Below, piece after piece: positions 10,304 through 36,469 of a DNA stretch of 64,000 nucleotides. A model generated the notes under the pieces. That model worked only from the letters and a program-made list of their open reading frames with translations. It searched no databases and was not told the DNA's origin. The DNA lies in contig OX485803.1 of NCBI GenBank assembly GCA_950295325.1, forward strand, positions 14,632,001-14,696,000. The letters are read 5' to 3'. The position numbers were made by a program, and so were the translations under genes. Every line of letters begins with the position of its first letter. Within the stretch, counting starts at the first letter, position 1. The DNA comes from Polytrichum commune (lineage: Eukaryota; Streptophyta; Polytrichopsida; Polytrichales; Polytrichaceae).

Positions 10304-12787
10304 CGCCCTCCCAACCACCAACTTTTTGTTACCTTGAACAATTCCCCATGGAAAATGAGTGTTGGGCCCATGGACTGATGGGTTTAGGTGTCATTAGTGA
10401 CGCCACCGCATATTGGCCTCAACTACCTCCATATAGGGTAAGTAACGGGCTCCACTCTATCTCGGGTCAATTCAAGGTGGGTTTAGGGTGGCTTGTCAAT
10501 GCTTATTCTAGCCATTCTACAACCAAACCGGCTGGGATCATGAAGGTGGCCATGTTGGGCTTTGATTTAGCTTGGGTCTAGTACCCAACTATATTGTGTT
10601 GGTTCTAGGCAATGAAGGTGGGGGTCCTCATCATGTGCAAGGTTGTCATACACGAGGCCTAGGGATCGGTTTAAGTAAGCTAGTGGTCTTGACTTTGAAT
10701 ATTCATCAAATATTCAATTCATGCTAGTTTTTTCCCTTTATACCTATCTTTAGCCCAAAGGCTAATATGAATATATATTTCTCATATCAACCACATAGCC
10801 TTACGTATGTGCAATAGCTTAAAGTGTTGGTTTAAGCATCCTCTACCTTAGGCACTACAGTTGGGGCTAGAAGTCTTGCTTTTTCTAAATGGGCTTTCAT
10901 CAATCTTACTGAGGTAAAAGGGGTCAAATAAATATCACCTCTTGAATAGCTTCATGGTTATTTTGTCCCAAATTAATCATGTTAAATAAATATGGGGTAG
11001 TTGCAAATGTGAGATTTTGGAGTCACACCAATATTAGAATATAATCTCATGTTATAAAATATTCATTGACACAATCACATCTATAAAGGAACAACTAGTT
11101 GGGTCCAGTTTACCATAACCTTACTCAGTTGATGAGTTGTGTTCAGCTACCCAAACTTCATATTCAATCTAAAGCACTTAGATTCCGACATCCAAAAGCT
11201 TTATTCTCAAATCTATTGCGGGACCCATAAACACACTTCATCATTTGAGTAATGTTATGACTCTAGTATGTAGTCATTTATTATCGTGTGGTGGGGCCTA
11301 GAAGAGACTAGATGGGGCAATATATCATGTCATGAAATGAAAGGTCATACATCACCATAAATAAGAGTGGCCAAGTGTAAGCACATCATGTGTATTATAT
11401 GATCCAAGCTCTTCGAAAACTTTGTGGGTCTTTCATTACTTTCTGGATTGCATAAGGTGTGAGAGAGAGCCTTTGCAAATGAATACTTTTCAATTGATTA
11501 ATGTGCAAAATTTATAGATATTACATTCTAAATTGAACACACACAAATACATACATACATACATACATATAACAATTTGGTTTTTTTTGAACCTCTTTAC
11601 AATCAATATCCATTTTAGGCTCACATATATGATGATATGTACATGTGGGGCATGAGCATCCACATGTATTTTACCATACACTTGAAGACAATATTACACG
11701 CTGTTGAATAGCAACCCATTGCAAATGCTTCCATCCTTAATATGCGGAGCTTTAAAGTGCAGAAAAACCAATAAGCTCTAAGTGGGTTCTTCATGAGTCC
11801 ATGTTACTTAGGTTTTGAATTAATTGGCACCGGTGATCACACTCTACATTAGCTATCTTTGAAGCAAGTTGTTAGTACATTTTGCTTTTAAATGTATGAA
11901 AGAAGCCATCACATATTGGTTCATGCCTATCAAGTTAGAACGGGGACTACTATCATATGAGCAGTGAGGGAGGAAAAAATAAAATGGAAATACATGCACT
12001 AATATCCTCTACATGTGGTAATCTGGTATAAGGAATATCTATTTTGTCTATAACAATATACAAACAAAGAGCGACTAGCCTAAATTATGTCTTAAAAAGT
12101 AATTAACTAATTAAAACAATTAAGGGTTGTATTTTTAAATTTAATTGATTAATGATCATTAATGTTAAGTCAATTAGGAAACCAATGAATAGAAGCCCTA
12201 AAACATTGGAAAACAAGAATGGGACTTTGGGGAACTCTCAATGCTCAAATTATTCTAGGTTTTAACAAAAGAAGAAGTATTTATAAGAAATGAGAAGTTT
12301 TTAAGTATACTACAAAATTGACGACAAATTATGTACAACAAGGGACATTGGGAGGTCTCCCCCATCCATATCACTTGAAGTAGAACACACCCAACATATA
12401 ATATACGATGAAGCACATGCAATGAATAGAAATTGGATTTAGGAAATATAACTTTATTTCATAAAATCTCTAACACAATTTGTGCAATGCATCAAACATT
12501 GCACAGTTGATCATAGAATGAACTACAATCTAAATAGCAATAGAAATCCTAAATTATATACTTCTACTATATCAACAAAAGATTGGGAGGGCTCCGGATG
12601 GCTAAGTAGTTCATGCATCAGCCATCATCTAACACTATATTCGTTAAATTGAGACTTTTTGGGCATTTTGAGACATTCATAGAAATAAGAACAAGGATAA
12701 ATGGAACACATATTGGTGAAGGTTGTAAGATGCGAACACTTTGAAGCGGGTGTTTAGACCAAGAACCCCATTAATAACTCATATTTG
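10304..12787. other. Gene-free AT-rich stretch
   Basis: No supported gene. A CATA tetranucleotide microsatellite lies at about 11547-11570. A short motif resembling a GGGAG/CTCCC dyad occurs near 12349 and 12583. Confidence 0.5.
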
Positions 12788-13205
12788 TGATGGTTTAGGG
12801 TGGGCAATTGAAACCTTAGACCAAATTGAAGGGGACATCTTAAAACATTCATATTAATGCACACAAAATATGAGAGCTTGTATGAATATGGTTTAGGTAG
12901 GGCAATCCAAACCATAGATCTTATTGAAGGGAAAATCTTAAAACATTCATATTAATGCACACAAAATATGAGAGCTTGTATGAATATGGTTTAGGTAGGG
13001 CAATCCAAACCATAAATCTTATTGAAGGGAAAATCTTAAAACATTCATATTAATGCACACAAAATATGAGAGCTTGTATGAATATGATTTAGGTAGGGCA
13101 CTCCAAACCATAGATCTTATTGAAGGGGAAATCTTAAAACATTCATATTAATGCACACAATAAGGCACTCCAAACCTTAGACCATATGGAAGGGGAAATC
13201 ATGTC
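12788..13205 (+). repeat. 98-bp tandem array with decayed palindromes
   Basis: Units start at 12842, 12940, 13038 and 13136, an exact 98-bp period, with partial units at both ends. Each unit carries ATGGTTTAGGTAGGGCAATC followed by CAAACC. This reads as a degenerate version of the GTTTGGGTCG dyad found from 15.6 to 26 kb, with CpG positions lost. The relationship is inferred from resemblance. Confidence 0.85.
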
Positions 13206-13341
13206 TAACTTATATTATTGCAAAAAAAAACATACAAAGTGTGGCATGTAAAATGCATATCATGCTAACACCACACATCCATTGGATAGTGCGACCCAAA
13301 ATGTTCTTGCCTATGGCCCAAAACCCTACGCCTACTATGGC

Positions 13342-14146
13342 CTATCTAGCCTCGGATACTACCTCTTTTTCTTTTGCTTCATTTTCTTTTGTTTTTTTTT
13401 CTTTTGCCTCTTTTTCTTTTGCTGCAGCTTCTTTTGCTCGCATTGCTTCAACATTCCTGAAAATCTCCGCCCCGCGACTATAGCCATTCTTGGGGTGACC
13501 GCCATCCATAACACATTTTGGAGTCCGTCGGCCGCCCGAAATATACGTCGAAGAATTCGAATACGATGAAGTGGATTGTCTCGCATTTCTGGTCATGGCG
13601 TACATACGCTCGAACTCGATGGACGCACTAGACCGCATAGGTTTACGGGTGGGAGCAACCTGCAACGCGTCAATGCAAGACCACATGTGTTAGTTTAGGG
13701 AGGAAGACCCAAACGTGTCACACGTTCATTTTTTAAGTGCAAAATGATTGTAATGCGCGGTTAACCAGGTTTTGGGGGGGGGGGGGGTTCACCTTGTCAC
13801 CGGGGGCGTTCCCGTCGGAGTCGGCGAGGAGGGGCAATGCGTCCCGCAAAGGAATAGGAAGGGTTCCACTCTTCGTTGGCCGAGCGTCCATCCGCAGCCG
13901 CCGTTGAGGTGTACTACTGCCGCCGGGCGGAGAGGGGGATGTCCGGACGCATTTGCGATTTATGCCCTTGAGCGGCGACGGGGACGGAGAATGCCGGAAG
14001 ATTTGCTTGGGTGGGGGGCTATCGACGACGCCGGCGTCAAGAGGCTCCTTGGAGTAGTCAATGGTCGACGCGGCGTCGTAGACGGTCTCGTAGAAGAAGC
14101 TCCCCAAGTCTGACTCGTTGACGATGTCAATCGAGGGCTCCAAACG
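13342..14146 (-). CDS. Putative two-exon 3' gene part, function unknown
   Basis: Two open blocks join cleanly. An exon at 14146-13793 (118 codons) follows a pyrimidine-rich acceptor ending GCGCCAG and ends at AAG before GTGAAC. An exon at 13659-13342 follows TTGCAG and runs to a stop, both in phase 0. The first block is proline- and serine-rich (SPSPSPLKG, TSPSPPGG). The second ends in a KEKEAKEKKTKENEAKEKE charged stretch that is probably coiled-coil or disordered. I recognise no domain. It lies just downstream of the phosphatase exon, which ends in its own stop at 14314, and no first exon fits in the 167-bp gap. It may be an alternative 3' end of the leftward gene or a fragment of another gene. 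Confidence 0.4.
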
Positions 14147-14263
14147 CTGGCGCAAAAAAGGAAACGAAACAAAACCCAAGGGAGGAGGGTTTGATAGAGC
14201 GCGTGAAAATCAAGATACATATGAAGCATATACTACACAAAATGAAAGGGCGCGCGCGCGCCC

Positions 14264-14305
14264 ACACACACACACATACATACATACATACACATACAAA
14301 CACAC
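14264..14305. repeat. CA/CATA microsatellite
   Basis: Runs of CA and CATA directly downstream of the phosphatase stop codon, preceded by a GC dinucleotide run at 14249-14260. Confidence 0.8.
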
Positions 14306-14313
14306 GTAGTGTC

Positions 14314-15126
14314 TCAAATGAGCTTGTTAAATTTCGCGTGAGATAACAACTCTCTGTACAAATGGTCTCGTGGATCCAAGTATCTCTCGCCTATCGGATT
14401 GTTCCTAACAAAATTATTTACGGGCAGTCCGCTTCCGCAGAGCGCCTGGAGGTATTTACCAAGGTCTAACAAAAATCGGTCCCGGACCTTCTCGACCGTC
14501 CAGGTAGGGCAAACTATGAGGTTGGCCGTCGGGTTCAACATGTTCTTTGCGGCGCTGTCGTCCACCATGAGCGTGTTCTCGCGGGTGGGACGGACGTCGT
14601 AGGGGACGCCTATCAAGGACGGCCGCTGGTCCCAAAAAATGGGCTTCAAGACCTTGAGGTATTGGGGGGAAGCGGGGTTGTTTGGTTTTTTGACGACTTT
14701 GCCGTCCGGTGTGTACAATATTCTACAGGCTTCCTGTGCTAGGACCATGCACGGGGGCTCGATGCCCTTGAAGATGAACTCCACGACGACATTGGTGTTC
14801 TCGGCCGTCATGGAGCTCCAAACGACCACCCACCATCGTTGTTGGGCCATCTGGAGGAAGGTCCGAAGCCACGGGCGGAGGTGAACTAGCTTGCTCTTTA
14901 TGAACGTGGGCGGGCCGTCGTAATTTGCGTCCTCGGGCTTGCAAAAGGGCACCGTGGGGGTCCTCGGGCAATGAACGCATTGGACGAGGACCCCGTTCAG
15001 GTCTAACACCAGGAATCATTTCTTCGGCCGCGGGGGCGGGGCGGGTAAAACCGGGGGTGCCGCCGCGCTGCCCTCTCCGCTCCTTGGAGAAGAGCGTCGG
15101 GGAGCCGCTACGCTATGCTCCGAGCC
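14314..15126 (-). pseudogene. FCP1/NIF-type HAD phosphatase exon with in-frame TGA
   Basis: HAD phosphatases of the FCP1/SCP (NLI-interacting factor) class dephosphorylate proteins through an Asp nucleophile. The frame shows LVLDLNGVLV (motif I), VVVWSSMTAEN (motif II region) and MVDDSAAKNMLNP (motif III). Motif I has DLN where active FCP1/SCP enzymes have DLD, so the first Asp is kept and the second is Asn. The exon follows a good acceptor (TATCCGCAG) and opens with an Ala/Pro/Arg-rich leader ending RPKK. A TGA at 15016-15018 then interrupts an otherwise continuous frame, directly before FLVLDLNG. The frame continues for 233 codons to a stop at 14314. The acceptor is in phase with the donor at 15639 of the ParB/methyltransferase gene, so this is probably a further exon of that gene. 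The TGA argues for decay. Confidence 0.6.
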
Positions 15127-15639
15127 CTGCGGATACGATCGAGAGAAAACGGTGGGCGACTTATGTCATGCTATGTCCAAACGAAGCATTAAAGAAACGA
15201 GTGTTCTCGGTGCAAACACAAAACCATTTGATTCATTTTGGAGGGGGTGCAACAAGGGACACAAGATAGGCAAGAGCATACAACATACATTCAAACACAG
15301 GATACGAGTATATAGGAGTAAAAAATGGTGATTATATTGTATACAATGCTCTATGTACATCTTGATTGGGGGGAGCCGCGTTGAACGATGCGTTCAAACT
15401 AGCCTACTTCTACATCTAGCAAAAATTGAAGAGACGGGCCGCCGTGATGAAGATTTCGTCGCAAGCCGGGGGGTATGTGGACGAACAAATGGTCGGGGGG
15501 AAGTGGCGAAGGGCGCGAGTGCCGGGGGGGCGACGTGTCCGTGAGTTTAGGGTAGTTAGGGGACACGACCAAGGCAAGAAGACAAAGACCCATGGAGTTT
15601 GGGTCGACCGACCCAAACTGAGTGGGGTCAGTGCATTAC
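15127..15639 (-). other. Probable intron joining ParB/methyltransferase and phosphatase exons
   Basis: On the minus strand the sequence reads GGCGAG then GTAATG (donor) and, 513 bp on, TATCCGCAG then GGC (acceptor); both sides are phase 0. A palindrome of the window-specific family lies at 15596-15619, only 20 nt inside the donor, as in the other introns of this gene. No transcript evidence exists here. Confidence 0.45.
15596..15619. repeat. Single dyad palindrome, centre AC
   Basis: AGTTTGGGTCG, two central bases, then its reverse complement; perfect arms. It lies 20 nt inside the putative intron donor. Confidence 0.95.
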
Positions 15640-16083
15640 CTCGCCTTGGTCGTGCCTTGACGACATGGATGCCGTCACCGCGTGCGCTGCCCCACCTCTG
15701 TCACCGCCGCCTCCGACGACGACGTCAGCCGCAACCTGCTCCTGCAAAGGCTGACTGTCAGGCCTTTCTCCCAACCCAACCTCCGCATGCGCATCATGCA
15801 TTGGTTCATCGACTGGGTTAGGAGTAGAGGTATCACCAGGCCCTTGCGGGCCTTCAACATCTAGCATGGGCTCGTCCACCGGGGTCTGATCGGGGACGGG
15901 GTTTGGGTCGGCCGACCCAAACCCTGCTGCTTGGCGAGCGTCGCTCTGGGACGCTGCAACGTCGGCACTGTTTGGGTCGGACGACCCAAACATGTGGGGG
16001 TCGTCCCGCTGGTGGTGTGGGGGCAAGAGGATGGGAGGCCGGAGCGGCGGGGGTGCCAACGGGCTGGAAGCTCCTGGGACGTG
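15640..16083 (-). pseudogene. In-frame continuation of the ParB/methyltransferase exon past TGA
   Basis: After the TGA at 16084-16086 the same reading frame stays open for 148 codons, ending at GAG before the donor GTAATG. The translation is proline-, aspartate- and glutamine-rich (PPPLRPPILLPPHH, VDEPMLDVEGPQGPG). It reads as a low-complexity linker and includes two palindrome-derived FGS(S/A)DPN segments. If the TGA is a recent mutation (for example from CGA), the ancestral exon 3 ran to 15640 and was spliced to the phosphatase exon at 15126. Confidence 0.5.
15900..15992. repeat. Two dyad palindromes within coding frame
   Basis: Perfect palindromes at 15900-15923 (centre GC) and 15969-15992 (centre GA). 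They lie in the frame that continues after the TGA at 16084. There they translate as FGSADPN and FGSSDPN, so the dyad has been tolerated as protein sequence. Confidence 0.95.
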
Positions 16084-19000
16084 TCAAAGGTTGGGGTCGT
16101 CCACCTGCTGGACGGGCACGTAAGGGCGGGCGTGCGGCTGCAGCAAATGCGCGAAGCTGAAGGATTGCTGCGGCGCCGGCCGCGGGCGGATATCCTGTGG
16201 AGGGAAGCCTGCGGGCAAGTGAGGGAATGAACTCGGGGGAGCCATCACCAATCCCTGCGCCAGCATGCCCTGGATCACTTGCGTGATCAGGTCCGCTTGG
16301 GACAGAGGTGGGGCCATCGCCTTTTGCCGCTCCTGCTCCAACAGGAGAGCCCTCAACTCCGCGACTTCGTTGCGGACCGAGGGCTCCTCGGCGGCGGCCT
16401 TTTGCAATCGGACGCGTTGCTCCTCGTCCCGGAGCATCTTCGCGTTGGCGTCCTCCACGGTGAGGACCTCGGGTTTCACCCTCACCATCCCGGCGAACGC
16501 TGTGGGGGAGGCAGGATCCGACCTCAGCCTCTTCGCGAGCTCCATGTCGTCCTCGTCCTCGGAGCTTATGGCGATCGTCTCCTCCACCGCATAGTCCCTG
16601 TACAACTTCTTCCCCTTCAGCATTCGCCGCTCCCTGAAGGTGGCCGTCGCGTCCCTCGAATACATGTCCTTCGCGTCGGCCACCGTTAGGACGGGTACTA
16701 GCTTGCTCTGCGGCGTTGCAGCCCGCCTGGCCTTCTTCCGCTGAGGGGCCTCGGATTCTTGAGTGAATCCTGTTGCCCCTTCCTCCACCTCCCCCTCCAC
16801 TTTCTCTGCTTCCTCCTCCTCCTCCTCTTCCTCCCCCTCCTCCGCAACCTGGCCACCTGCTCCCATAGAGGGATTGCCCGGATGCAACCCGATGAGCGGC
16901 TCTGGCAATTGAACGGGGGCTCGCATGGCGAATTCACCCGGGTTGATTCGCCTCGCCATATCCAAAGGATTCTCACCCCCCTCGACGATCTCTTCGACGT
17001 AGGATCCGGGTATCCAGTCGAGGATGTCCATCCTCTTGGCCAGCGCCTTCTGGGTCCTGTAGAATTGAACATCGACATCCTCCACATAGGAGTAGATGTT
17101 CAACCCAGACATCTGCACAATCAAAATCAATACTATTAGTATCACCAAATGAACAAATAATGGAAAGTGACATCCAAAACAAAATAAGAATAGTTAGTTT
17201 GGGTCGAGCGACCCAAACCATGCATGCCCTAGTTTGGGTCGAGCGACCCAAACAATGCATGCCCTAGTTTGGGTCGCTCGACCCAAACCGTCCATATAGT
17301 TCCTTCAGGTTATTTGCTTACCATGGCTGCGAAAACCGGTTTGGAGCCCCCGAAGACGTTGAAGATGCACTCCCCTCTCTTCGTGAGGGTCCTCATCATC
17401 CGCAGGTAGAACTCCATGCGCAGCTCATCCGCGGGGTAGTTGGCGTACTTTGCCTCGTCGTACAAGCTCCTGCTGGTGCCCAACCCTTCTTGGACTTGGA
17501 AGAGCTTCTCCATCCTGGCTATGGGATGGTTTGGCACCTTAAGCAGCTCAGCTTTGTACACAAAGTACAAGCACAACACGTTGACGATCTTCGTCTTCTT
17601 GTCTTTCAGCGTGTTGTACGCCCCCTCCGCCGGTGCAGCAACGTAGTGAGATTTTGAGACGGCGTACTCTGGCTGCAATTTCCGCACGATCTCGTACACC
17701 TGCTCTGCCCTCCTGTCCTCGACAATCCACAGCCAGACGTCGACCTCCCTGAATTTGGGACTGCCGTAATCCACAAACTTCGTGAAGAACGGCTTGTAGA
17801 ATGGGGTGCTCATTGTCCCCTCGAATGAGGCTCCAGGGATGTTCCTGAAGTCTATCATTCCGAAGGGGAAGCGGTCCCCGACTTTGGTCCTGATAGCCTT
17901 CCTGGCATCAGAGCCCGGCCATCCTTGGATCTTGGGAGGCTCGAGGGTGACCAAGTTGAAGTAGGCGTCGCCCTCGAAGCTGACGATCTTCTTCTCCTTT
18001 ATAAAGTTGGAGAAGGCACGCGCGGAGTGTTCGGGAAGCGCCCGGTTCCTCCCCCCCTTCACAAGCTTAGACTTCAGGAAGTCGTCTCCCGCCTCCCTGA
18101 TGAGTGCCGCCATTGACGCACTGGTGAACTTGTAGTCGGCTTTGAATGCCCTCCAGTGCGCCTCGTCGACCTCTCCATCCACTATGAGCTTCCTTTCCAG
18201 CACCAGCTTGTGCAGCTCCTGGACGATGGTCGTCTTCTTTTTCCTATTCTCCGTCCATTCCTTCATGGTGTAGCATGAAGGGACGAAGATGAAGACGATC
18301 TTCGGGTGGACCCAACATCTCTTCGCCGTCGGCTGCACGTGAAGGATGTGGGACGCCGCCTTTCCCATCTCTGTCTCCGAGAGACCTTGAAGAGCCCTGA
18401 AGAACTCCCTCACCAGAGGCTTCATCTGCTTGAAGCGCGCAGTCTGATTGAAGAGCATGCCGGTGTCGGGATCCATGAGGTCCCCCGTCTCGTGTTTCTC
18501 GAAAACACTCTTCCATCTCCTCCACACGGAGTCAGACGCTGTGATCAAATAAATTTCTCCTCTTAGCTCGTTGTACTTCTTCTGCTTGTGGGAAGCGTTG
18601 TCAATTGAGGAGAATTTGTTGATCATCTGGTATTTGAAGTCCTGCACATGAAGTAAATAACACACATTAGAAAACTGCGAATGCAAGAGTTTGGGTCGAT
18701 CGACCCAAATTATAAACCTCACGAGAAAAAGTAAGCAATGTTACAGTTTGGGTCGATCGACCCAAACTATAAACACGACGAGAAAAAGTAAACAATGTTA
18801 TAGTTTGGGTCGATCGACCCAAACTATAAACCTGAATAAAAAAGGTAAACAATTCAAGAGTTTGGGTCGATCGACCCAAACATACTCACCTCCCATTTTG
18901 GGTTCTTGTCTTTAGCATTCTCCCTTTCCTTGGGAGGCATGCCGTAAAACTCCCACACCTCCCTCGAGGCCATGATGTTTCGAATCCAGGATGCCTGGTA

Positions 19001-20215
19001 CGCCCTCTTCTTGTTTCCCATGTTGAAGAAACGTGAGATGTCGGTTAGTACGGTCTCGTTGTCAGACCAAACCACCAATGCCTTCCACACCTTTAGCTTC
19101 TCCTTTTGGTTGTTGGGGTCGTCCCACTCGGTCATCAGCTGAATTTTTTTAGACGCCTCCACACTGTGCTGGCCGTCAATCAGCCAGAAGTCGCCTTTGC
19201 ATATTGTTGGCCACATTTCAGGCGTCGGCATTCTCTTCAGCCCTTGCGGCATGACAACAATTGTCTGCCTGTCGTCTTTGAATTGCCCTCCCAAGATCTG
19301 AGCGACCATCCAGTCGACGTAGGCGTCCTCCTTGGCTCGGACACACTTCTCAGGTGGCGCAAGGTGGCACTGTGCAATGTTCACCTCGAACTTGAAGTCC
19401 CTGCCCATGAAGAAGCAATGCAGGCACTTCGTCTCGAAGTTATCATTGATTTTCTGTATCTCGCCTGCATCCACCTCTTGGCCAGGTTTCAGCATCCGCA
19501 GCTCCGGGGAAACTGGCTCGGTGGTCATGACGGAGGACTCTCTCGCCCTCTTCGACGGGGTCGTCTGCCGGCTTCCGGACGGTGTGGGCGTCTCGCTGTC
19601 AGCCGGCGTTCCTGTAGTGCTACGCCGTCTGGAGTCTGCAGGGACCGGACACGGTATCCTCGCAGTTTGGGGTCTGGACGACCCTGCGCCTTCTTCCGCC
19701 GTTGCCTTACGCCTCACAGGCTTCTGCGTTTTGGCTTTACTTTGCAGCGCCTTGTTGAGGACCGTGATGGCCTGTTTCAATTTTGTAAACCTACTTGCAA
19801 CCTTCGTGTTGGTTACATTGCCATCTATGAAAATTGTCTCCGGTTTAATTGTTTCAGGCTCTACGCATGACTCCTTGGCGTATATAGTGTCGAATGACTC
19901 GGAGAACTGGTGCATGAACATGTGGGCGTTCTGCACGGCGGAGTTCTCGAGAATTACGTCCACGTAATCCCCGAGGGCTTGGACGGACGCAACCTCCCAT
20001 CCTGTCAACGTTGTCCAAGTGTGGTTCTCGTGGGTCCCTACTTTTACCACGAACAGGAGCTTGAACTGGGAGCCCTTTACAACCTGAACTGACCACGCAA
20101 GGACAAGCCCATCCTTGGGCACGTATGAGTCGTCCTGGGGGGTTTCATACTCCTGCCATATTACGTCTGGCGCGAGCATAAAGAACCTTTCTCCAGGTCT
20201 CTTCTTGGGGGCCAT
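16084..20215 (-). CDS. ParB-like plus degenerate DNA methyltransferase-like protein, three exons
   Basis: Exons are 20215-18890, 18641-17322 and 17112-16084, all phase 0, with donors GTGAGT and GTAAGC and acceptors TGCAG; 1224 residues from ATG (MAPKKRPGERFF). Residues 1-130 are of unknown fold. Residues 160-235 are Ser/Thr/Pro/Arg-rich and probably disordered. Residues 275-425 resemble a ParB/DGQHR-type domain, with IVVMPQGL, then GDFWLIDGQHSVEASKK at 341-357, where ParB proteins have an [ID]G-[EQ]-R/H motif. Residues 670-910 follow the order of a class beta DNA methyltransferase: FNLVTLEPPK at the motif IV position, then GECIFNVFGGSKPVFAAM at the motif I position, then NIYSYVEDVDVQFY as motif II. 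The motif I to II join spans intron 2 exactly. Motif IV is EPPK instead of DPPY or DPPW, so catalysis is doubtful. The tail has an acidic run (about 973-994) and a QRKKARR basic cluster, suggesting a nuclear protein. I do not know a named homologue. Confidence 0.65.
17113..17321 (-). other. Intron 2 with a palindrome array
   Basis: Donor GTAAGC follows GCAGCCATG; the acceptor is TTGTGCAG before ATGTCTGGG. It splits the methyltransferase-like motif I/II region without loss of frame. Three palindromes begin 33 nt inside the donor. Confidence 0.8.
17197..17288. repeat. Dyad palindrome array, exact 35-bp period, 3 copies
   Basis: Palindromes at 17197-17218, 17232-17253 and 17267-17288, all with perfect arms. 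Centres are AG, AG and CT; CT is the reverse complement of AG, so the third copy is inverted. Spacers contain ATGCATGCCCTA. Confidence 0.95.
18642..18889 (-). other. Intron 1 with a palindrome array
   Basis: Donor GTGAGT follows TGGGAG; the acceptor ATGTGCAG precedes GACTTCAAA. It is 248 bp long and phase 0. The first palindrome starts 7 nt after the GT, and four copies fill most of the intron. Confidence 0.85.
18689..18881. repeat. Dyad palindrome array, exact 57-bp period, 4 copies
   Basis: Copies at 18689, 18746, 18803 and 18860, all with centre AT. The third extends to a perfect 30-bp palindrome (18799-18828). Spacers share CACGAGAAAAAGTAA-type sequence. Because 57 is a multiple of three, the array gives open frames on both strands that are artefacts. 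Confidence 0.95.
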
Positions 20216-20242
20216 TTGTAAGTCCAGAAATTAAAACTATTA

Positions 20243-20360
20243 GTTTCGGTCGATCGACCCAAAGTAGTCGACAATGCATTTAACATTTGGTGGAAATGGA
20301 ACAAATGTATTTTATTGACCAGCCCGAATTCAAGGTTTGGGTCGATCGACCGAAACCTTG
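20243..20360. repeat. Two dyad palindromes upstream of the ParB/methyltransferase start
   Basis: 20243-20264 and 20331-20360, both with centre AT and one mismatch each (TTTCGG in one arm). The second extends to CAAGG...CCTTG for 30 bp. They lie 28-145 bp upstream of the ATG at 20215. Confidence 0.9.
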
Positions 20361-20526
20361 AACACTTGGTGGCTCGTGCTCCTTGTGTGCTGAAATAGAC
20401 CTATGATGGTTCCTCGTTAGAGAGTTTGTGTGTATTTAGTATAATATATGTGTATGTACATGATTTCATCAATTTCAATTATGGACATCTGAAGGATTTT
20501 TTGATACTTTACTTGTTCAGACGTCG

Positions 20527-20617
20527 TGTTTGGGTCGGTCGACCCAAACATGAGGCTTTGTTTTGGGTTTAGGTTCCCAATCATGAGGCCATGTTTGGGT
20601 CGAACGACCCAAACATG
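20527..20617. repeat. Two dyad palindromes, centres GT and AA
   Basis: 20527-20550 and 20590-20617, with perfect arms apart from the central pair; the second extends through CATG on both sides. Both are followed by ATGAGGC and TTTGGGTTTAGG-type spacer sequence. Confidence 0.9.
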
Positions 20618-20688
20618 AGGCTTTCTTTTGTGTTTAGGTTCACAGACATGTGGCTTTCTTTAGGGGTCAGGGTCCCAAAATGAGGACA

Positions 20689-20840
20689 TGTTTAGGTCGG
20701 ACGACCCAAACAATAACCTGTGTTTGGGTCGACCGACCCAAACAAGAGGCTGTGTTTGGGTCGATCGACCCAAACAAGAGGATGTGTTTGGGTCGATCGA
20801 CCCAAACACAGCCTCTTGTTTGGGTCGTCTCCCCAAACAA
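20689..20840. repeat. Dyad palindrome array, exact 32-bp period, 5 copies
   Basis: Copies start at 20689, 20721, 20753, 20785 and 20817. Centres are GA, AC, AT and AT, and the last is degenerate in its right arm. The spacer is AAGAGGCTG-like and inverted in the last copy. The array lies between the ATG at 20215 and a possible donor (AAG then GTATTG) near 20957 on the minus strand, so it may sit in a leader intron. Confidence 0.95.
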
Positions 20841-20984
20841 TATTATTTTATTATATATTTTAAACTTGGCATGAAGCATATACATTGCTTATGCGTTGTG
20901 TATGCTACAAACCATGAATTAAACATCTCACATTGTGGATATAAGAAAACACAATACCTTTGAAAGATGTGTTGCAGACACTTT

Positions 20985-21400
20985 GGAGTAGATCTGGTTC
21001 TGTGGCTTCCAAACAATTATAAATTCTCTCAAACAACTCTTGAATTTCTCAACAAACTCCTGAATCTCTGAACGAACTCCTGAACCTCTGAACCAACTAC
21101 TGAATCTCACACACAACTACTATACCTCTGAAACGAATTCGAAATCTCTCAAGCACTCCTTAAACAACACAAACTCCCAAAACTTCAAAGATATAACCAC
21201 TCCTGAATCTCACAAAAAACTACTGAATCTATCAAACAAACCTAAAACAACACAAACTCACAAAACGTGCACCTCACAAACACTCCTGAATCTCACAAGA
21301 ACTCCTGGACACTCTTCCAACTCTCTTCCAACACTCTTCCAACACTTTCCAACACTCTTCCAACAACTCTTCCAACTCTTTCCTTCATCCTCACGCCCTA
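20985..21400 (-). repeat. Low-complexity short tandem motif, possible leader
   Basis: Repeated short units such as AACTCCTGAATCTC and ACTCTTCCAAC run through this stretch. On the minus strand it lies upstream of the ParB/methyltransferase gene and ends at CTTTCAAAG before GTATTG, a plausible splice donor. It could be a transcribed leader. That is inference. Confidence 0.45.
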
Positions 21401-21556
21401 AAACCTTCCTCCGTGTGTTTCTGGTTTTTTCTAAACTCTTCCTAACTTCCAAGGTTGCACAAGTGCTATTCTGTTGTAGAGCAAGAGAAAGGAGGGATAT
21501 AGAAGAATGAAATACAAGCAAAACGCGGGAGAAAGCAAACTAAAAGCTACACATGC

Positions 21557-21597
21557 GCCTGAATCGCCACGCCGCTTCGCGAAAGCGGCGCTTCAGG
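21557..21597. repeat. GC-rich hairpin
   Basis: GCCGCTT and AAGCGGC pair around CGCGA, and an outer CTGAA/TTCAG pair encloses them. It lies in a GC-rich patch (21550-21800) upstream of the leftward gene. A second perfect hairpin, GGGTGCCC/GGGCACCC, lies at 21724-21748. The patch may be the promoter of the leftward gene. No core element was identified. Confidence 0.5.
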
Positions 21598-21799
21598 AGA
21601 GGCGGCGCTTCCAAGCGAGGCGCGGAGCGTATGCTTGGCGCGGAGAGTAAGAGAGAAAGAATGAAATTTTGTGACGGTTGGGGTTTTGTTTGCCTCGGGA
21701 ATTGGCCCCCAACCGCGCGAATAGGGTGCCCACAAGATTAGGGCACCCACGGGAATAGGGCTATAGGGAACCCTAAATTCGAAAGCCCGACTCTAAACC

Positions 21800-24690
21800 C
21801 TTAGCGGGCCTACCTCTTTAAAAAGGCATAGGCAATTTCCCTCATGGCATAGGTTGCATACTACAATATCAAATTTTTGTAAGTTGAAAACCTTTTGAGC
21901 CTTTAAGTTACCCGCCAATTGCCTTCAAAACTAATTTTTAGTAGGTTAAAATCCTTCATATCTTTTAATGTTGTAGGTTTTAAATTCAATTACCCGCCAA
22001 TTGCATTCAAAATTTGAGTACTAAGTCGTATCCTTGGCAGGAATTGAACCTGGCTAAGCCTTTCACCACGTTTGAAGGCCAAGGATTAACCATCTGTTTT
22101 TTAAAGCGTTGATTATAAGTTATGAAAGGTTGCTTAAATTCAAATGAGTTCAAGGGTGAAAGTCCTCACCATCTTCTGATTCAACCTCTATTCTTCCTAA
22201 GATATAGCCTAAAGATATGTACTTAGGCCAACTAATTTCCTAATTTGAAGAAGGATGAATGGCCAAAATCCTCTATTTTAAACAAATTGTATGTAAAATT
22301 TCCTACATGTTTTTTATCACATAGGTTGATATCCTATGTTCTTAAATTGTGCATAGGCTCTTTGTCCTACACTTTCAAAATTTTATAGGCTAAGTCACTT
22401 ATTTTTTAGGCTACATTTGTATTAATCACTTTATTCGTTAATTTGTGATGGTTTAGGTAGGACGACCCAAACATTAGACTATGTTGTTGTGGTCTTACAA
22501 TAAATATGGTTCTAAGCCCTTGAAATAATTGGATGACTTTATGGTTCTATTCTCAAACCTAAGTTTGATCCTCGACTTCATGTATAACTCTACTATGATG
22601 TATAAAATGGCCCCCACCCCCACCTCGCACCCCACCAAAGCTTTTGTACAAGTTTCTCAAGATTTCAATCCCTTGTGCTTGTGATCATTTCCTAATCCAC
22701 TAGACTGTTTTCTCTAATTAGTGTGGGTTACCATTCGGAGCTACACATTTCTGTAACATTTAATAGAAAGTATTTTTTTCATCCAAATAACATAAGTAGG
22801 TAGTATGCACACGAAAGATTATGATCTGACTTAGTTGGTTAAAAACGATAATGTCGGTAAAAAGTTATAGCAAGACATAATTATGAAGTGCACAAGTGCA
22901 CCTCTCGTTCATCCAACATAAAGCCCTTAAATAGTATGTAACTTGATCTCTGGAGTACACTAAGGGTCTACATAAAATGTGTTATTCTACAAAACTAACC
23001 ATTTATATAGCCAATGCATTCTTACAACAAAACTTTATGCTAAACTATTACTTAACCCCTACATACATGACACCATACCCTCCCTTTTCCAAACACATTG
23101 AAGGCATTGGTTTCTCTTTTGTTTGACCATGTTAGGAAAACCATACAATTGCGTGATATTTGACGATGGAATCATTGACATCTAGACTTTACCAATGATG
23201 CCAACAACTCACACGATATTGAATGAATAAAAAAAGGGTCCCACACCCCCCAACATGTGGAACAATTTAGAATACGTGAGTGTGGAGCCTATTAAATGAA
23301 TACCTTCCCCAACTGCATTTTGTAAGGGTTTTGAAATGCATGATCCTTATTTGAAAATACTAACATGCGCAAGTTTTAAGTACATCCCTGAGATCGTGAC
23401 TTTGATGACTTCGCCAATAAACCATGGTTCACGATATATTTAATATATAGATTATGCTATAAGAGTAAATCGGATAAGCACAACATGAAATGAAACCATT
23501 CAAGCAATCATGTTGTTATTCATTGTTCCCTCCATGTATATTAGATGATGGCGCAAGATAAATTAGATGTTGTTTGTATATGGGGGCATCAGTGGACCAC
23601 AACTACATTTGGTGTTTAGGGTTTAGGGTTTAGGAGATATGGTTATAACATATTAATCTATCCAATGTCAATGTATAACATTGTCTTACTCGTGAGAAGA
23701 GTCTTATAGGAAGGTTATAGTGAAGACGATCTTGATTATGTTAATTTGTTATTTGAGACGTTTAAACGCGATATATTGATTGGTCGTGTGTTTATTCAAA
23801 TAACATGAAATATTGTGGATGTTAATAGGGGCTAGGGGTCCAACTTTGGATGTTTCGCTCACTTTAGGGAATCACATATTAGTCGCTAATAAACCATCGT
23901 TCATGATGTATTTCATATATGGAATGTGATGTAAAAGTAAATCGGAGAAGCACAACATCATGTTGTTATTCATTGTTCTCTCCACGTGTATTAGATAATG
24001 GAGGAAGATATAACAGATATTGTTTGCATAATATGAAGAAGAGTCCAATCGGAAGGTCATAGTAAATACAATCTTCATCATGTTAATATGATATATGGGA
24101 CGTTTAAACATGATATCCTAATTGGTTTTGTATGTAGTCAATGCGTATTTCATGTTGTGGATGTTATAAGGGTTTAGGGTCCAATCTTCGATGTTTTGCT
24201 CTCACACATTAGTAAACTTGAAGTGAACTTGAGGATGGATTCAAGTAACATTAAAAGATTGAACTAAAAAGGGACATTGGTAGTTAGTATCCCCTTAACA
24301 ACGTCCACATACGTTCGTCATTGCCACTCTTGCATGTGAGATAATAGAGCAAGGTTCTAGGGTTTAGGGTTTAGGGGAGACAAATAAATAATTCTATTCA
24401 TGATGACAATGGCCTCAAGCCTTGGAAACTCTCTCATAATTGCAGCCTCCAAATGGCCCAAACCCCACCTAAATAGGTTTACACTTGAAAGCATTGAATG
24501 GAGTTGTGTTTGGGTCTACATATTGGTTAAAATATACCTTGATGATACTTGAAAAAATTAATGTGGCCGCCACCCTTCCTCCCAACGGCGTATGTCATAT
24601 CCACACAAGACAAAAAAAAAAAAAGATTAAATATCATAGACTAAGTCATATGACGGCTGGGGTATGAGAGGGGCATTGATAGATGCGCAT
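21800..24690. other. Divergent intergenic region with one decayed palindrome
   Basis: AT-rich DNA between the two divergent genes. At 22450-22472 GGTTTAGGTAGGACGACCCA is a decayed palindrome copy. Two short runs of TTTAGGG (about 23612-23632 and 24357-24375) resemble plant telomere sequence but are only two to three units long. A segment at about 22715-22775 resembles an arm of the inverted-repeat element at 55781-56009. No gene is supported. Confidence 0.55.
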
Positions 24691-24696
24691 TTTCTA

Positions 24697-24703
24697 CTAT
24701 AAA
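24697..24703 (+). promoter_or_regulatory. Possible TATA box for the DUF7869 gene
   Basis: CTATAAA lies in an AT/GC transition about 1.5 kb upstream of the first good ATG (26199). If it is used, the palindrome array at 25077-26010 would be transcribed as leader, perhaps within an intron ending at GTGTGTAG (26193). There is no direct evidence. Confidence 0.25.
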
Positions 24704-25076
24704 CAGAAAACGGGGAATTATGTCAGGAGGTTTGAAAAAACCTATGCAGGAGAACAAGGCGGGAAAGGCATCCAATGAGGAAGTCGGAGAAACGGAGGTG
24801 GATAGTATAAAGGGACGCACCCCCCAAAAGTCTGTCCTTTTTTGCTCTTCTCCCACTCTTGAATTCGTAGAGAGAACTCTTAGTCAGAGCTATACTTCAA
24901 GGTTCGTGCATGCTGCCGTTCATTAGCACTTATCCACAGCATGCAAGTTCATGAGCACCTATCCACAGCATGGAAGCCCACCGGGAACTTTGCAATGAGC
25001 TCAAAATCATATGGGATTTCGGATTGTCCGCCGCATTATCCGCCGGATTTTGAGGGTTTCAGTGTGACTCTTATCA

Positions 25077-25869
25077 GGTTTGGGTCGGTCGACCCAAACC
25101 CCTCCACTAGTGTGGGAGGGTTTCAGCCTGACCCTTACCAGGTTTGGGTCGGTCGACCGAAACCCCTCCACTAGTGTGGGCGGGTTTCAGCCTGACCCTT
25201 ACACAGGTTTGGGTCGGTCGACCGAAACCCCTCCACTAGTGTGGGCGGGTTTCATCCTGACCCTTACCAGGTTTGGGTCGGTCGACCGAAACCCCTCCAC
25301 TAGTGTGGGCGGGTTTCAGCCTGACCCTTACACAGGTTTGGGTCGGTCGACCGAAACCCCTCCACTAGTGTGGGCGGGTTTCAGCCTGACCCTTACATAG
25401 GTTTGGGTCGGTCGACCGAAACCCCTCCACTAGTGTGGGCGGGTTTCAGCCTGACCTTTACCAGGTTTGGGTCGGTCGACCGAAACCCCTCCAGTACTGT
25501 GGGCGGGTTTCAGCCTGATCCTTACACAGGTTTGGGTTGGTCGACCGAAACCCCTCCAGTAGTGTGGGCGGGTTTCAGCCTGACCCTTACCAGGTTTGGG
25601 TCGGTCGACCCAAACCCCTCCAGTAGTGTGGGCGGGTTCAGCCTAACCTTTGCCAGGTTTGGGTCGGTCGACCGAAACCCCTCCACTAGTGTGGGTGGGT
25701 TTCAGCCTGACCCTTACCAGGTTTGGGTCGGTCGACCCAAACCCCTCCACTAGTGTGGGAGGGTTCAGCCTGACCCTGATCAGGTTTGGGTCGGTCGACC
25801 CAAACCCCTCCACTAGTGTGGGAGGGTTCAACTTGACCCTGATCAGGTTTGGGTCGGTCGACCCAAACC
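25077..25869. repeat. Dyad palindrome array, 63-65-bp period, 13 copies
   Basis: Palindromes start at 25077, 25141, 25206, 25270, 25335, 25400, 25464, 25529, 25593, 25656, 25720, 25783 and 25846, all with centre GT. Eight of the 13 carry the same C to G change in the right arm (CGACCG), showing homogenisation or recent amplification. The spacer includes CCCTCCACTAGTGTGGG, itself an imperfect dyad, then TTCAGCCTGACCCTTAC. The array lies just upstream of the DUF7869 gene. Overlapping open frames across it are repeat artefacts. Confidence 0.97.
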
Positions 25870-25924
25870 CCTCGACCAGTGTGGGCGGGCTTGACCAAAA
25901 CCCCTCGACCCCTTGACATACAAT

Positions 25925-26010
25925 GTTTGGGTCGACCGACCCAAACCCCAACCCCAGCTTGGGCGGCTAGAGGTTGACCATGAGAAGGTTTGGGTCGGTC
26001 GACCCAAACC
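25925..26010. repeat. Two further dyad palindromes
   Basis: 25925-25946 (centre AC) and 25987-26010 (centre GT), both perfect in the arms, with non-array spacers. The second is 189 bp upstream of the ATG at 26199. Confidence 0.95.
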
Positions 26011-26198
26011 CCCTCCCAAAATTTTTTTTGGAACTTGCGCAAAGTATTGGGAGTTCACATTGTAGTTGTGTTGCAAATGTCTTTATCCTCGGTGTCCCCA
26101 TTTATCATGATGTCTTGTATTTTTCGATATTTGATTCTTTTGAACCCTTACATGGTGTGCATGTTTGTTGAGGTTTCATGTGCATGTGTGTAGGCGAA

Positions 26199-29100
26199 AT
26201 GGAGGGAGTTGGTGGAAGAGGGGATGCCTTCTCTGATGACATGGGCAACTCCCATTTTTCGTCTGGGGATGACCTAGACATTGTTGGGGAGGATAGTTTT
26301 GGTGACAGTGCAGATGAAGGTCATTTGGGGAGTCCTTCGCCATCTGCCCCTTCTTGCCCCACTGTGGAATGTGTTGGGCTTTCACGAGCTTCATGGGTGA
26401 ATTTGGATGTGGTACTTGTTAATGACAGTGGAGTTGCTGTGGCGGAGGGTATTTGTCGTAACACACATCCACAAGATTGCATTGATGAAAACCCCTTGGC
26501 ACCGAGGACGTTGGAGTTGTTATATTGGAATCACTCGTACATTCCGAAGTGAATCCAACTCATAGGTTCTCGTTGCGAAGGTGGCCGTTGAGGAATGTGA
26601 CAATTGATGGGGTTAATTTGCATGAGCATGAGCGACGACACATCGAAATCCAACAAGAGCTCCAAGCAAACATTCGGCCACGCAAAGGCCTACGGAAGTA
26701 CGATACATTGGCACGTCCTATTCCGTCTGCAAATGAGTGTAAACGTCAAAGGTTGCTCTGTGAGGAGTCTATTAGAAAAGTTGCCACAAAGGATTGTTGT
26801 GTACATCGTTGTTGCCAATTGTTCCCAAGGGATAAATTGAAGGCCATCCGCGAGGAAATGTGGCTTAGAGATTTCCGTCTAAGATCCACCAAAAAGCTTG
26901 ATGTCCATAGGGCGATACATGTGAACGGAGCGGATCGCAAGGTCATCACCCTTGAGAGCATAGACGTGTGTTGTACGGCATGGTACACCATTCATGGTGT
27001 GTCGAAAGCGGAATTTTATAGACAAGCCGCGTATGCCAAGGAAGGACACCGGTCCCGTCACCATGGGAATACGGGCTTAAAGAAACCAAGGGAAGCAACG
27101 AGACAAGCAACAGCCACTCTGGCAACCATCATTGTCCCCCTTGCCGATGCAATGCCGCACAAAACACGCACACTCTCAACCGGTGAAAAGGTTGTGGAGA
27201 AGGTTCTTCCTACAGGCACGAAATGGAAAGACATATTGTTGGACGTAAACGCAGTTGGCGAGAAGGCCGGGCTGGACCCTATTTCGTTGTCGAAACTGAG
27301 TGCAATAAAAAAATCTCACTTTAGCGAATACATCACAAAAAGACGAGGTGACAAATTTGCCCGTTGTTCCAAATGCGAGAAGTTGAAACGCCTTCGAGAT
27401 GCACACACGATGGGGACAGAGTCCTATGCCGCACATCAAATGAACTATTTCAAGCATGTGAACATGCAAGAGGCACACCGTAATGATTACTACACAAATA
27501 GAGCTTTGTCCATCTCTAGGCCTTTGGAGGTCCTTACAATCATCCATGACAAAATGGACCATGCCAAAACAGCCTCACCATGTTTTGCAAATCGAATCAA
27601 AGCCACGGACGGCCTTTTTAAGCTTCCTGTTTCGGTTACAAGTGATTTTGATAACAATTGCATTGCATTGCATTACCTAAACACAAATTTGTGCGTTTAG
27701 GTTTGTACTTGGGGCCAAACATGTACATCATGTGAATTTTTTGGTGTTATAGTTGAATATTAAACCATTGGGTTGCCTTTGCAGGAATGATTGCACATGG
27801 GCATGGTGATGTCAAGTATGCTCATTATGCTCTTGATTTGTATCCGGCGGATTCAAACCACACGATAGGGTCATTTGCAAAGCTTTTACGTGATTTGGAG
27901 AAACCGCCGTCCTATTCATCAAGATTGTTATTTGAAAACTCGGGATCAACACCTCTATATGAAGCGGTCTTGGATGGAAGAGATGTATGCGTGCACTCAT
28001 TGCCGGAGCCACCAAGTGAAGATGTGATTGCGAAGAATTTGCCTCCAACTCTGCGTGTCCAATTGGACAATTGTGCGAAGGACAATAAAAGTAGATATAT
28101 TTTTGCATATTGGTCGTTGTTGGTTGCGAAAGACATTTTCAAGGAGGTTTTTGTGTCCTTTCTATTGGTAGGCCACACGCACGATGATATTGATGCGTCT
28201 TTTGGGCGGTGGAGCATGAAGTTGCGCGAGGAGGATTTTCCAACAATCCCATTGTTGATGAAGTCGTACATGGATTTGGAGAACATTCCCGTCATCCCCC
28301 ATATGATCGAGGAGGTTCCAAACTTCAAGGCATTTATAGAACCGTATATTCGAAGCGGAGCTCACCGATTGATCGGACATACGAAGGCACAACAATTTCG
28401 GTTCTATGTGCGTGACGATGGTGTCCCCGCCATGCAATACAAGTTGTTGTGCACGTCACAAGACTGGAGCCCACCGGAGGGTCTCCTTGTATGGCGTGTT
28501 GATGGGGAGGGAAGGACGATGTTGCCTGACGGAGAGCCTAAGCCTTGCAAACCAATACCCATAAAGAATTTGGAGGACATTTGTAAAGGCATATCAGGCT
28601 TCATACAATATTGGGAGAGTTTGAGGGTAGCGGATGTTGGTGGATCGTGTTGGCTTCGTTACGGAAGTTGGATACAATATTGGACACGTGTTCGTGGCGC
28701 TTTGGCAAACCTTCATCAAGATACACCCCTTACTTTAAGGCATGGGTTTTGGCCACAAACACGTGTCAACGTACAAGTTTCGGAGGCTAGTCTTTTGGGA
28801 AATGGAGAGGTTCGAGAGGAGTTTGATGTAGACGACCATTACGTGGGACCTGCTAGTAGTCGTCCGCCACCATCTTTCCGCATTGCAGTGGATTGTCATG
28901 AAGGTTATATGCTCATTTTGCGTCTTGGAGATGAGACATATGCAAAGCCAGTGTGGGTGGCAAGAGCTTTGTCCAAACCAAATTTTGTAACTTCCAGCCC
29001 TCATTTTCGACAAATACAAGTAGAGTACTACCGACCGACAGCACGGAATGAAAATGTTGTTCGGCATTATACAGGCTGGGATACAAACCCTAACTTTCGG

Positions 29101-29271
29101 TGGAAGGTGGATTCTGAGCACGGTCCATCTTGGGTAGATACAGATTCAATATTCATAGCATGGAAACCACGGAAAAATCATAGTGGATCAGTGTCCATCC
29201 CTCAAAAGTACATAACTTTTGCAAAAGACAACCTTGCTCGGATCGCAGAAGAAGCAACCCACGTTGAATGA
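26199..29271 (+). CDS. DUF7869-type protein, putative DDE/RNase H-like recombinase
   Basis: Coding runs from ATG 26199, changes frame by one base near 26525-26552, continues to 27641, and after a 143-bp intron (27642-27784, GTGATT...TTTGCAG) runs to a stop at 29271. The core reads VQLDNCAKDNKSRYIF and VSFLLVGHTHDDIDASFGRW. The paired D-N-(x)4-N-K and GHTH(D/E)DID motifs are those I associate with DUF7869. They look like acidic residues of an RNase H-like (DDE) active site, but a transposase role for this family is inference. The amino half has Cys pairs (CCVHRCCQLFPR and FARCSKCEKLKRLRDAH), probably metal-binding, plus IHDKMDHAKTA. The splice is supported because the ATG after the acceptor (MIAHGHGDVKYAHY) begins the conserved core and needs an upstream exon. 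The frame change suggests a one-base indel or an unseen small intron, so this copy may be defective. Confidence 0.7.
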
Positions 29272-29815
29272 GAAGTTGGTAGGATTGTGTTAGCATGATT
29301 ATAGTGTAATATGTAATTCGACGAATATATATTACTCATATGTGTGCTCCTCAAACTTGGGGCAAAGTTTGGGTAGAACTTGCGAATGCTATATTGTTTG
29401 GGGTTGGATGAATATCCATTTACTATATTTCAATACAGTTGTGAAGTTCATTTTTTATTAAGTTTGGGACTAAATTTTCCATTGAAGAAAAATGCATTTA
29501 TTGCATGTACTTTGTATGTTGCAATGTCTATATTTGATTGACCATGCTAATAATAGAAATCATTTAATATGTTTCTTGGGTGAAACTAGTTTGGAGTGCT
29601 CTACCCAAAGTGTTTTTGTTGATGAAGTTGGTGTTGAGTGCTCTACCATATGTGCTTATGTCCACACCCCATAGATTTGGGATATTAGAACATATAATAT
29701 ATTTGAGATTGTTCGCAATATAGTCTCGGAATACGGAATGTTGTTTGATCCATATATTAATTTGAGACTAGAGAAAGTCTCAATTTAACGAATATAGTGT
29801 TATCTCTAAAGTTGC
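29272..29815. other. AT-rich DNA after the DUF7869 gene
   Basis: Probable 3' untranslated and intergenic sequence. The phrase TTGGAGTGCTCTACC recurs in related form about 45 bp apart (29590, 29634). No gene is seen. Confidence 0.5.
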
Positions 29816-36002: not shown

Positions 36003-36469
36003 CAAATGCCGAGCTTCAATTCCACCAGCAACCACTAGTACGGATGTTGTCTGATCTCTACTAAATAAGTTATATATACAGTTGGACAATTTGACTAGGG
36101 ATAATAGTAATCAATAGGTCATGGCATTTCTATCCATCTTGACAACTCAAAAGGTTTCTCAACAGATACATGTCATATTCCTACTCATGGATTACACTCA
36201 TGAAGATATAGACGGGTATTTCAACCACTTGTCCTAACAACTCAAAACAACAAACACGTTTGTCCTCATTGATAAGAATTTTGTGTCTATGTCCATCATA
36301 TCACGTCACATCCTATGATAGCAAAGTGATAGCGAACCAAAACATGCCACCTTAGCAGGGGATAAATCCGACAATTTACCCTGGGGTAAACTAACACGGT
36401 CAACCCCTTGGGTTAACTGCAAAAGAAGAAGATCTAACCGTCTAGATTTCTCATAAATTAAAAAAAAAT
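36003..36469. other. Gene-free stretch
   Basis: No gene recognised. Confidence 0.5.

Follow-up and report, generated by a model that had tools for sequence, protein, structure and literature searches.

A window of 64,000 nucleotides from Polytrichum commune (NCBI GenBank assembly GCA_950295325.1, contig OX485803.1, positions 14,632,001 to 14,696,000 of the forward strand) contains a DNA transposon, here called F1, that carries a ParB-like gene, a transposase-like gene and arrays of a 22-bp palindrome, GTTTGGGTCG-NN-CGACCCAAAC. The palindromes are a real and conserved family of dyad-symmetric sites borne by the transposon. Nine further regions of the genome (R1 to R9) were fetched around listed sites, all within the first 4 Mb of contig C1. 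F1 is present in four of them, as complete copies in R4, R5 and R6 and as a rearranged one in R9, all with the same genes; the window copy is denoted W. The element and its genes are laid out in the window as follows.

12631 to 29801, no strand assigned: F1 DNA transposon, 17,171 bp, recognized by its inverted ends and the target duplication ATCT on both sides.
12631 to 12658, plus strand: left terminal inverted repeat AACACTATATTCGTTAAATTGAGACTTT, from end comparison.
13733 to 14179, minus strand: open reading frame (ORF) x14, 148 aa, conserved between copies (ORF list and copy comparison).
14314 to 15009, minus strand: ORF with an NLI-interacting-factor-like (CTD-type) phosphatase domain (PF03031, E=6.5e-13), conserved in R4, R5, R6 and R9.
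15663 to 16083, minus strand: exon-3 tail of the ParB-like gene, open in R5 and R6 and cut off by a stop in the window copy (translation in the exon-3 frame).
16084 to 17112, minus strand: exon 3 of the gene model, with an in-frame stop at 16084-16086 in the window copy, ahead of the tail.
17113 to 17321, minus strand: intron 2 (GT-AG) of the gene model.
17322 to 18641, minus strand: exon 2 (gene model, relatives and genome copies).
18642 to 18889, minus strand: intron 1 (GT-AG) of the gene model.
18890 to 20215, minus strand: exon 1, with a beta-rich N-terminus and a predicted ParB/Srx-like domain containing DGQHS (gene model; fold comparison of the relative P0122).
26525 to 27700, plus strand: upstream coding part of the transposase-like gene (ORF list and copy comparison).
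27787 to 29271, plus strand: DUF7869 part of the transposase-like gene (PF25273, E=3.7e-40).
29774 to 29801, minus strand: right terminal inverted repeat, from end comparison.

A scan of the window with up to three mismatches identified 34 sites at 15597-26009, of which 21 were perfect, 10 had one mismatch and 3 had two, while 100 dinucleotide shuffles yielded none. The original prediction of about 33 palindromes with a free centre was thus confirmed, and 12 different centre dinucleotides occurred among 211 sites from ten genomic regions. The arms varied most often at position 18 (22 of the 211 sites, with G in 17 of these), followed by positions 22 (11 sites), 1 (9) and 5 (9). It also held true that no intact copy lies elsewhere in the 64 kb, as the best matches beyond the 17-kb element had 6-7 mismatches. 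However, the palindromes had been proposed to be specific to this locus, and this had to be rejected: the genome (407.8 Mb searched, 64 contigs) contained 13,295 sites with a 2-bp centre and at most two mismatches, compared to none for the reversed pattern, and the window sites are part of a DNA transposon with many copies. Exact arms separated by 3-12 bp occurred only 169 times, in a comparison that covers spacings of 2-12 bp and allows mismatches in the 2-bp count alone. The outcome that would have refuted the prediction, an ordinary satellite scattered without a link to the genes, was not found, because all nine fetched regions carried sequence of F1 or of a second transposon family, F2, an assignment that covers these nine regions. 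A simple satellite was rejected as well, because the spacers between sites were unrelated. No contig of IMG/VR contained the palindrome.

The sites identified by the scan are distributed within the window copy of F1 as follows (no strand assigned).

15597 to 15618: one site 3' of the exon-3 tail, one per complete copy (4 copies).
15901 to 15991: two sites within the tail of exon 3, at a distance of 69 bp, giving FGSxDPN in the exon-3 frame (with translation).
17197 to 17288: three sites in intron 2, in a 35-bp unit.
18689 to 18881: four sites in intron 1, in a 57-bp unit, the first beginning 8 nt past the end of exon 1.
20243 to 20807: eight sites upstream of the ParB-like gene.
22451 to 22472: a lone degenerate site, GTTTAGGTAGGACGACCCAAAC, with identical letters in R6 (with copy comparison).
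25078 to 26009: fifteen sites upstream of the transposase-like gene, in a unit of about 64 bp.

The same compartments were filled in all four complete F1 copies compared. The divergent promoter region held 24, 30, 18 and 27 sites in W, R4, R5 and R6, respectively, accounting for 99 of the 136 sites. There were 4, 4, 3 and 3 sites in intron 1 and 3, 3, 2 and 3 in intron 2, and each copy had two sites in the exon-3 tail and one 3' of it, with none in other compartments. Sequence counted as coding contained 8 of the 136 sites, compared to 60 expected by its length; the corresponding binomial figure of 8e-24 ignores the arrayed occurrence of the sites. This count treats the tail as coding throughout, although among the four copies only R5 and R6 have it open in the frame of exon 3. 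In these two copies the tail is proline-rich and ends with GEVIH, and their two tail sites read in frame as FGSTDPN and FGSGDPN; R4 and R9 carry the tail in a different frame. The lone degenerate site of the window follows an internal stretch that resembles the element end with 7 mismatches (22425-22472 together), and a similar layout is present in R6 (14249, 14411) and, inverted, in R5 (12127, 12147).

Such a distribution bears on whether the palindromes are bound by the transposase. En/Spm (CACTA) elements have many subterminal TNPA sites for an element protein and a 3-bp target duplication. F1 resembles them in having many short, putative element-protein sites within a DNA transposon, that is, many dyad copies inside one element, and the diverged 98-bp tandem repeats near its left end (12790-13160) contain the motif in a form with 4-7 mismatches. 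However, none of the 136 sites lies in the outer parts of the four complete copies; all of them fall inside the stretch bounded by the phosphatase ORF on one side and the beginning of the transposase-like gene on the other, so subterminal transposase sites were rejected. In addition, F2 has the same site with 10-bp target duplications and without a relative of the DUF7869 gene by tblastn. We therefore consider it highly unlikely that the palindromes are transposase-binding sites. A CACTA identity for F1 itself, suggested by ends with CACTATA, was dropped because its copies show target duplications of 4 bp, not 3 bp.

The target duplications were ATCT, AAGT, CCTT and ATAA in W, R4, R5 and R6, respectively, and CATT and AAGG in further copies (the ends of five more were fetched, and for two of them both ends fell inside the stretch), which makes 4 bp in all six copies whose two ends were seen. 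The inverted repeats are perfect over 28 bp, or 29 bp when one flanking base is counted. A first look for exon 2 across the genome gave 1,224 candidates, of which 96 were scored; these were 91-100% identical and were all located on seven contigs, C1-C7. Eight of the scored copies on three chromosomes tie in score, and two of them differ in their target duplication. The near-identity of the exon-2 copies together with the differing target duplications suggests that F1 has moved recently. The rearranged copy in R9 (G000 C1:3956001-3982000; L025-L027) has two element ends that point the same way, and its phosphatase part is inverted. The phosphatase ORF of the window copy (14314-15009) is possibly a captured host gene. 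The DUF7869 protein is probably the transposase, judging from its place in the element; among its listed relatives, those with a name belong to two mosses, Ceratodon and Physcomitrium, and a literature search on DUF7869 found nothing. A weak remnant (30%) resembling this protein is present at 36007-36303, outside the element and without sites.

The first intron-1 site lies 8-9 nt past the exon-1 splice donor in all four copies, and this proximity to the donor recurs in several relatives of the gene. It might indicate that the site acts in RNA, as hairpins that steer splicing or feed small-RNA pathways. However, the divergent intergenic region accounts for 99 of the 136 sites, a centre of 2 nt cannot form a loop unless the inner pair opens, and the preferred spacing and dyad symmetry are those expected for a dimer on DNA. 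The chance that the palindromes serve in RNA seems to us very slim.

The arms were conserved where the spacers were not. Between regions, the arms were 96% identical, compared to 35% for the spacers and 33% for shuffled spacers (211 sites, 1,206 sampled pairs), a comparison that favours the arms because the sites were picked by them. Within arrays, the values were 97% for the arms and 71% for the spacers. The array units measured about 32, 35, 57, 64, 78 or 73/85 bp and differed in their letters. Between subfamilies, the 47 bp that separate the two tail sites were 53% identical, and the distance of 69 bp was kept. Could these be selfish or neutral repeats, produced by tandem duplication in the transposon and by a self-spreading palindrome, but without function? 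The arrays do grow by tandem duplication, in units of 32 to 85 bp. However, neutral repeats would hardly keep their arms constant across unrelated spacers, hold their positions in relatives that are 66-80% identical, and avoid exons except for one tail, and we attach little probability to this explanation. As a reading of the sequence, the alternative named in the original prediction, a binding site under selection, has good support from the constant arms, unrelated spacers, preferred spacing, fixed gene positions and use of the same introns in relatives, in some of them with symmetric arm changes. The prediction had also mentioned spread by an own mechanism; the 22-mer may spread in this way in the seeding of new arrays.

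The relatives came from public genome and metagenome sets, in which the ParB-like gene of F1 had 18 protein relatives with 66-80% identity. The gene callers of these sets read into introns, and translations of the site (VWVxRPK, FGSxDPN or LGRxTQT, with one substitution allowed) were found in 15 of the 18. The same translations were absent from the 120 listed of 207 relatives of the DUF7869 protein. In the relatives of the ParB-like gene they follow the end of exon 1 or exon 2, several of them near the intron-1 donor; in P0128 and P0130 they occur upstream of the start as well, and in P0123 also in the tail. No clear translated site was seen in P0135 and P0136. P0132 has SFGRPTET, in which both arms are changed (position 5/18), and SLGRATET, in which one arm is changed. 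In P0133 we found FGPVGPN, FGPTGPN and GRPAQT, the last one cut by the start. We read these as back-translating to GTTTGGGCCG-NN-CGGCCCAAAC, which would mean that two complete sites and a partial one carry the same change, mirrored in the two arms; this variant was derived from protein letters. It had no match in the genome studied here.

The five other fetched regions (R1, R2, R3, R7 and R8) have flanks of the transposon F2 in common, and tblastn found no F1 genes in them. In R7 (G000 C1:3438314-3449586; L021/L022), F2 is 11.3 kb long with inverted ends of 31 bp that are alike at 30 of 31 positions, and its target duplication, read by eye from the ends, is 10 bp in both R7 and R8 (L023/L024). 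Mutator-like elements have target duplications of 9-11 bp, and F2 falls within this range; two of its exons had no Pfam match at E<=1 when a MULE transposase domain was sought. The remaining three regions contain parts of F2, and the F2 palindrome array in R3 (L011, 5306-8029) is apparently split by an insert of about 2.3 kb that is also present in R1 (L009). In R7 and R8, a palindrome array lies ahead of a gene with a WDGNHRF motif. The last two of its six modelled exons encode a methyltransferase-like domain, which matched Pfam N6_N4_Mtase (PF01555) with E=3.9e-4 over profile positions 30-218 of 221, at 20.9 bits and thus under the curated cut-off of 26.7, and matched DNA methyltransferases of PHROG with E=6.4e-5 and 2.2e-4. 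The gene has two in-frame stops in R7 and frame changes in R8.

That F1 and F2 have the palindrome in common is firm. That they also encode the same type of protein is a lead. The F2 protein had no match in the protein collection, and a whole-profile comparison of the F1 and F2 proteins revealed no likeness, with a reversed F2 control scoring higher. In comparisons by domain, shuffles scored as high in 8 of 60 cases for the ParB part and in 32 of 60 for the methyltransferase part; the best local match, FWLIDGQHSVEASKK with FFIWDGNHRFLAWKN, was equalled in score by 8 of 60 shuffles. The half-sites also occur beyond these two families. Those listed among the 169 wide-spaced places are all one 31-bp hairpin or its one-base variant, with arms 11 bp apart, and the four places examined (L028:1527, L029:1379 and 6842, and L030:1841, from three loci) lie in related inverted-repeat sequence. 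The element there is about 380 bp long at three places and partly preserved (about 240 bp) at one; its ends are like GGCCGGTTCACACTATG, and its centre has the half-sites of the palindrome 11 bp apart, GTTTGGGTCGAGCAAAATGCTCGACCCAAAC.

The presence of the half-site in both transposon families and also in a short inverted-repeat element may point to a host DNA-binding protein that recognizes the palindrome, such that the transposons took up the arrays as promoters or enhancers or the host silences them through it. The divergent promoter region contains most of the sites, with 24, 30, 18 and 27 in the four copies, which agrees with this. However, F1 or F2 is present in every fetched region, the sites also occur in introns and a protein tail, and the symmetric variant of P0133, absent from the genome studied, better fits an element protein that co-evolves with its site. 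A host factor is thus unlikely in our view.

We suggest instead that the palindromes are putative target sites of F1's own ParB/sulfiredoxin-fold protein, which would be recruited to all copies, most likely against host silencing; we hold this to be about evenly balanced between right and wrong. The dyad, the preferred 2-bp centre with free letters, the multiplication in non-coding sequence of each copy compared and the accompanying ParB-like gene are consistent with a dimer, encoded by the element, that seeks out members of the same family. In this scheme, a dyad-symmetric, sequence-specific DNA-binding protein would target sites in the non-coding parts of the genes of a 17-18 kb transposon. 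The likeliest binder would be the product of the gene whose introns and 5' and 3' flanks bear the sites, and the arrays in the promoter region and introns would draw it to every copy of the family. Recruitment would then most likely protect the copies from silencing by the host, much as VANC protects VANDAL elements. Both the binding and the anti-silencing effect are inferences here, and the fold itself is weakly suggested by prediction. DGQHS was invariant in all ten aligned proteins, and a second structure prediction had a mean pLDDT (predicted local distance difference test) of 40. A sequence search of PDB gave no match for the exon-1 ORF and one chance match (E=0.16) for alignment A1. For exon-2 relatives in IMG/VR, 8 stretches fitted a pattern and none was confirmed, and an N6_N4 methyltransferase domain had no match in F1, where a likeness was seen by eye only.

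In Arabidopsis, VANC proteins of VANDAL elements target the repeated motif of their own family and remove methylation (PMC5735166, PMC10398659). F1 is similar in carrying a short motif in tandem repeats within introns and intergenic non-coding sequence (PMC5735166), and in its fast-changing repeat units, a motif that differs between related families, a candidate binder encoded by the element and recently moving copies. However, the F1 motif spans 22 bp and is a dyad around a 2-bp centre, compared to the 9-base YAGTATTAY given there for VANC21, and the candidate F1 protein is predicted to be ParB/Srx-like. Pfam matches to DUF1985/DUF287 of the VANC family were absent from the ORFs of exons 1-3, P0122 and P0123. 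Moreover, F1 is not a VANDAL element, having a 4-bp target duplication and DUF7869, and its site is common to a second, different family. Our best reading, offered by analogy and not as a claim of membership, is that VANC-VANDAL is the system closest in its way of working, although the protein is of a different type.

Other systems resemble F1 and F2 in part. The predicted ParB/Srx-like fold and the clustered dyad-symmetric sites are reminiscent of ParB-parS. However, F1 is a eukaryotic DNA transposon, and DGQHS, without arginine, stands where an arginine motif is expected, an equivalence that depends on how the letters are read. Bacterial parS differs in its letters from the palindrome of F1 and F2, and no ParA-like Pfam match was found among the element ORFs scanned, a subset of all ORFs. 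Fusions of ParB folds to N6_N4 methyltransferases have been described in phages, an arrangement that F2 resembles; the main text of that report has no mention of 'transpos' or 'plant' (PMC12704722). In fungi, TET/JBP genes are carried by several DNA-transposon lineages, which is similar in that a possible anti-silencing gene is found on different DNA-transposon superfamilies; the protein is another one and the abstract mentions no target-site arrays (PMC12730594). Sola DNA transposons occur in Physcomitrella, duplicate 4 bp of their target and may be longer than 15 kb (PMC10741241). F1 is similar to them in its 4-bp duplication (6 of 6 copies), large size and presence in a moss; its presumed transposase was recognized by DUF7869.

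A wider scenario, tentative and on balance rather unlikely, is that unrelated superfamilies of plant DNA transposons acquired a eukaryotic module resembling ParB-parS, at least one version of which includes a methyltransferase-like domain. The protein would load on the sites, spread, and keep the element open or mark it by unusual base methylation, and sites and protein would co-evolve via symmetric changes. Among the papers listed by literature searches for this motif or module in mosses, none dealing with it was seen. To our knowledge, few plant transposons defend themselves with their own sequence-specific protein and marked target sites, and VANC is the model. If our suggestion is true, the moss elements would represent an independent invention with a protein of bacterial or phage type, a clean 22-bp target, thousands of natural sites and two transposon families. 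This would allow the arms race over silencing to be tested beyond Arabidopsis, and may offer a new sequence-specific DNA-binding module.

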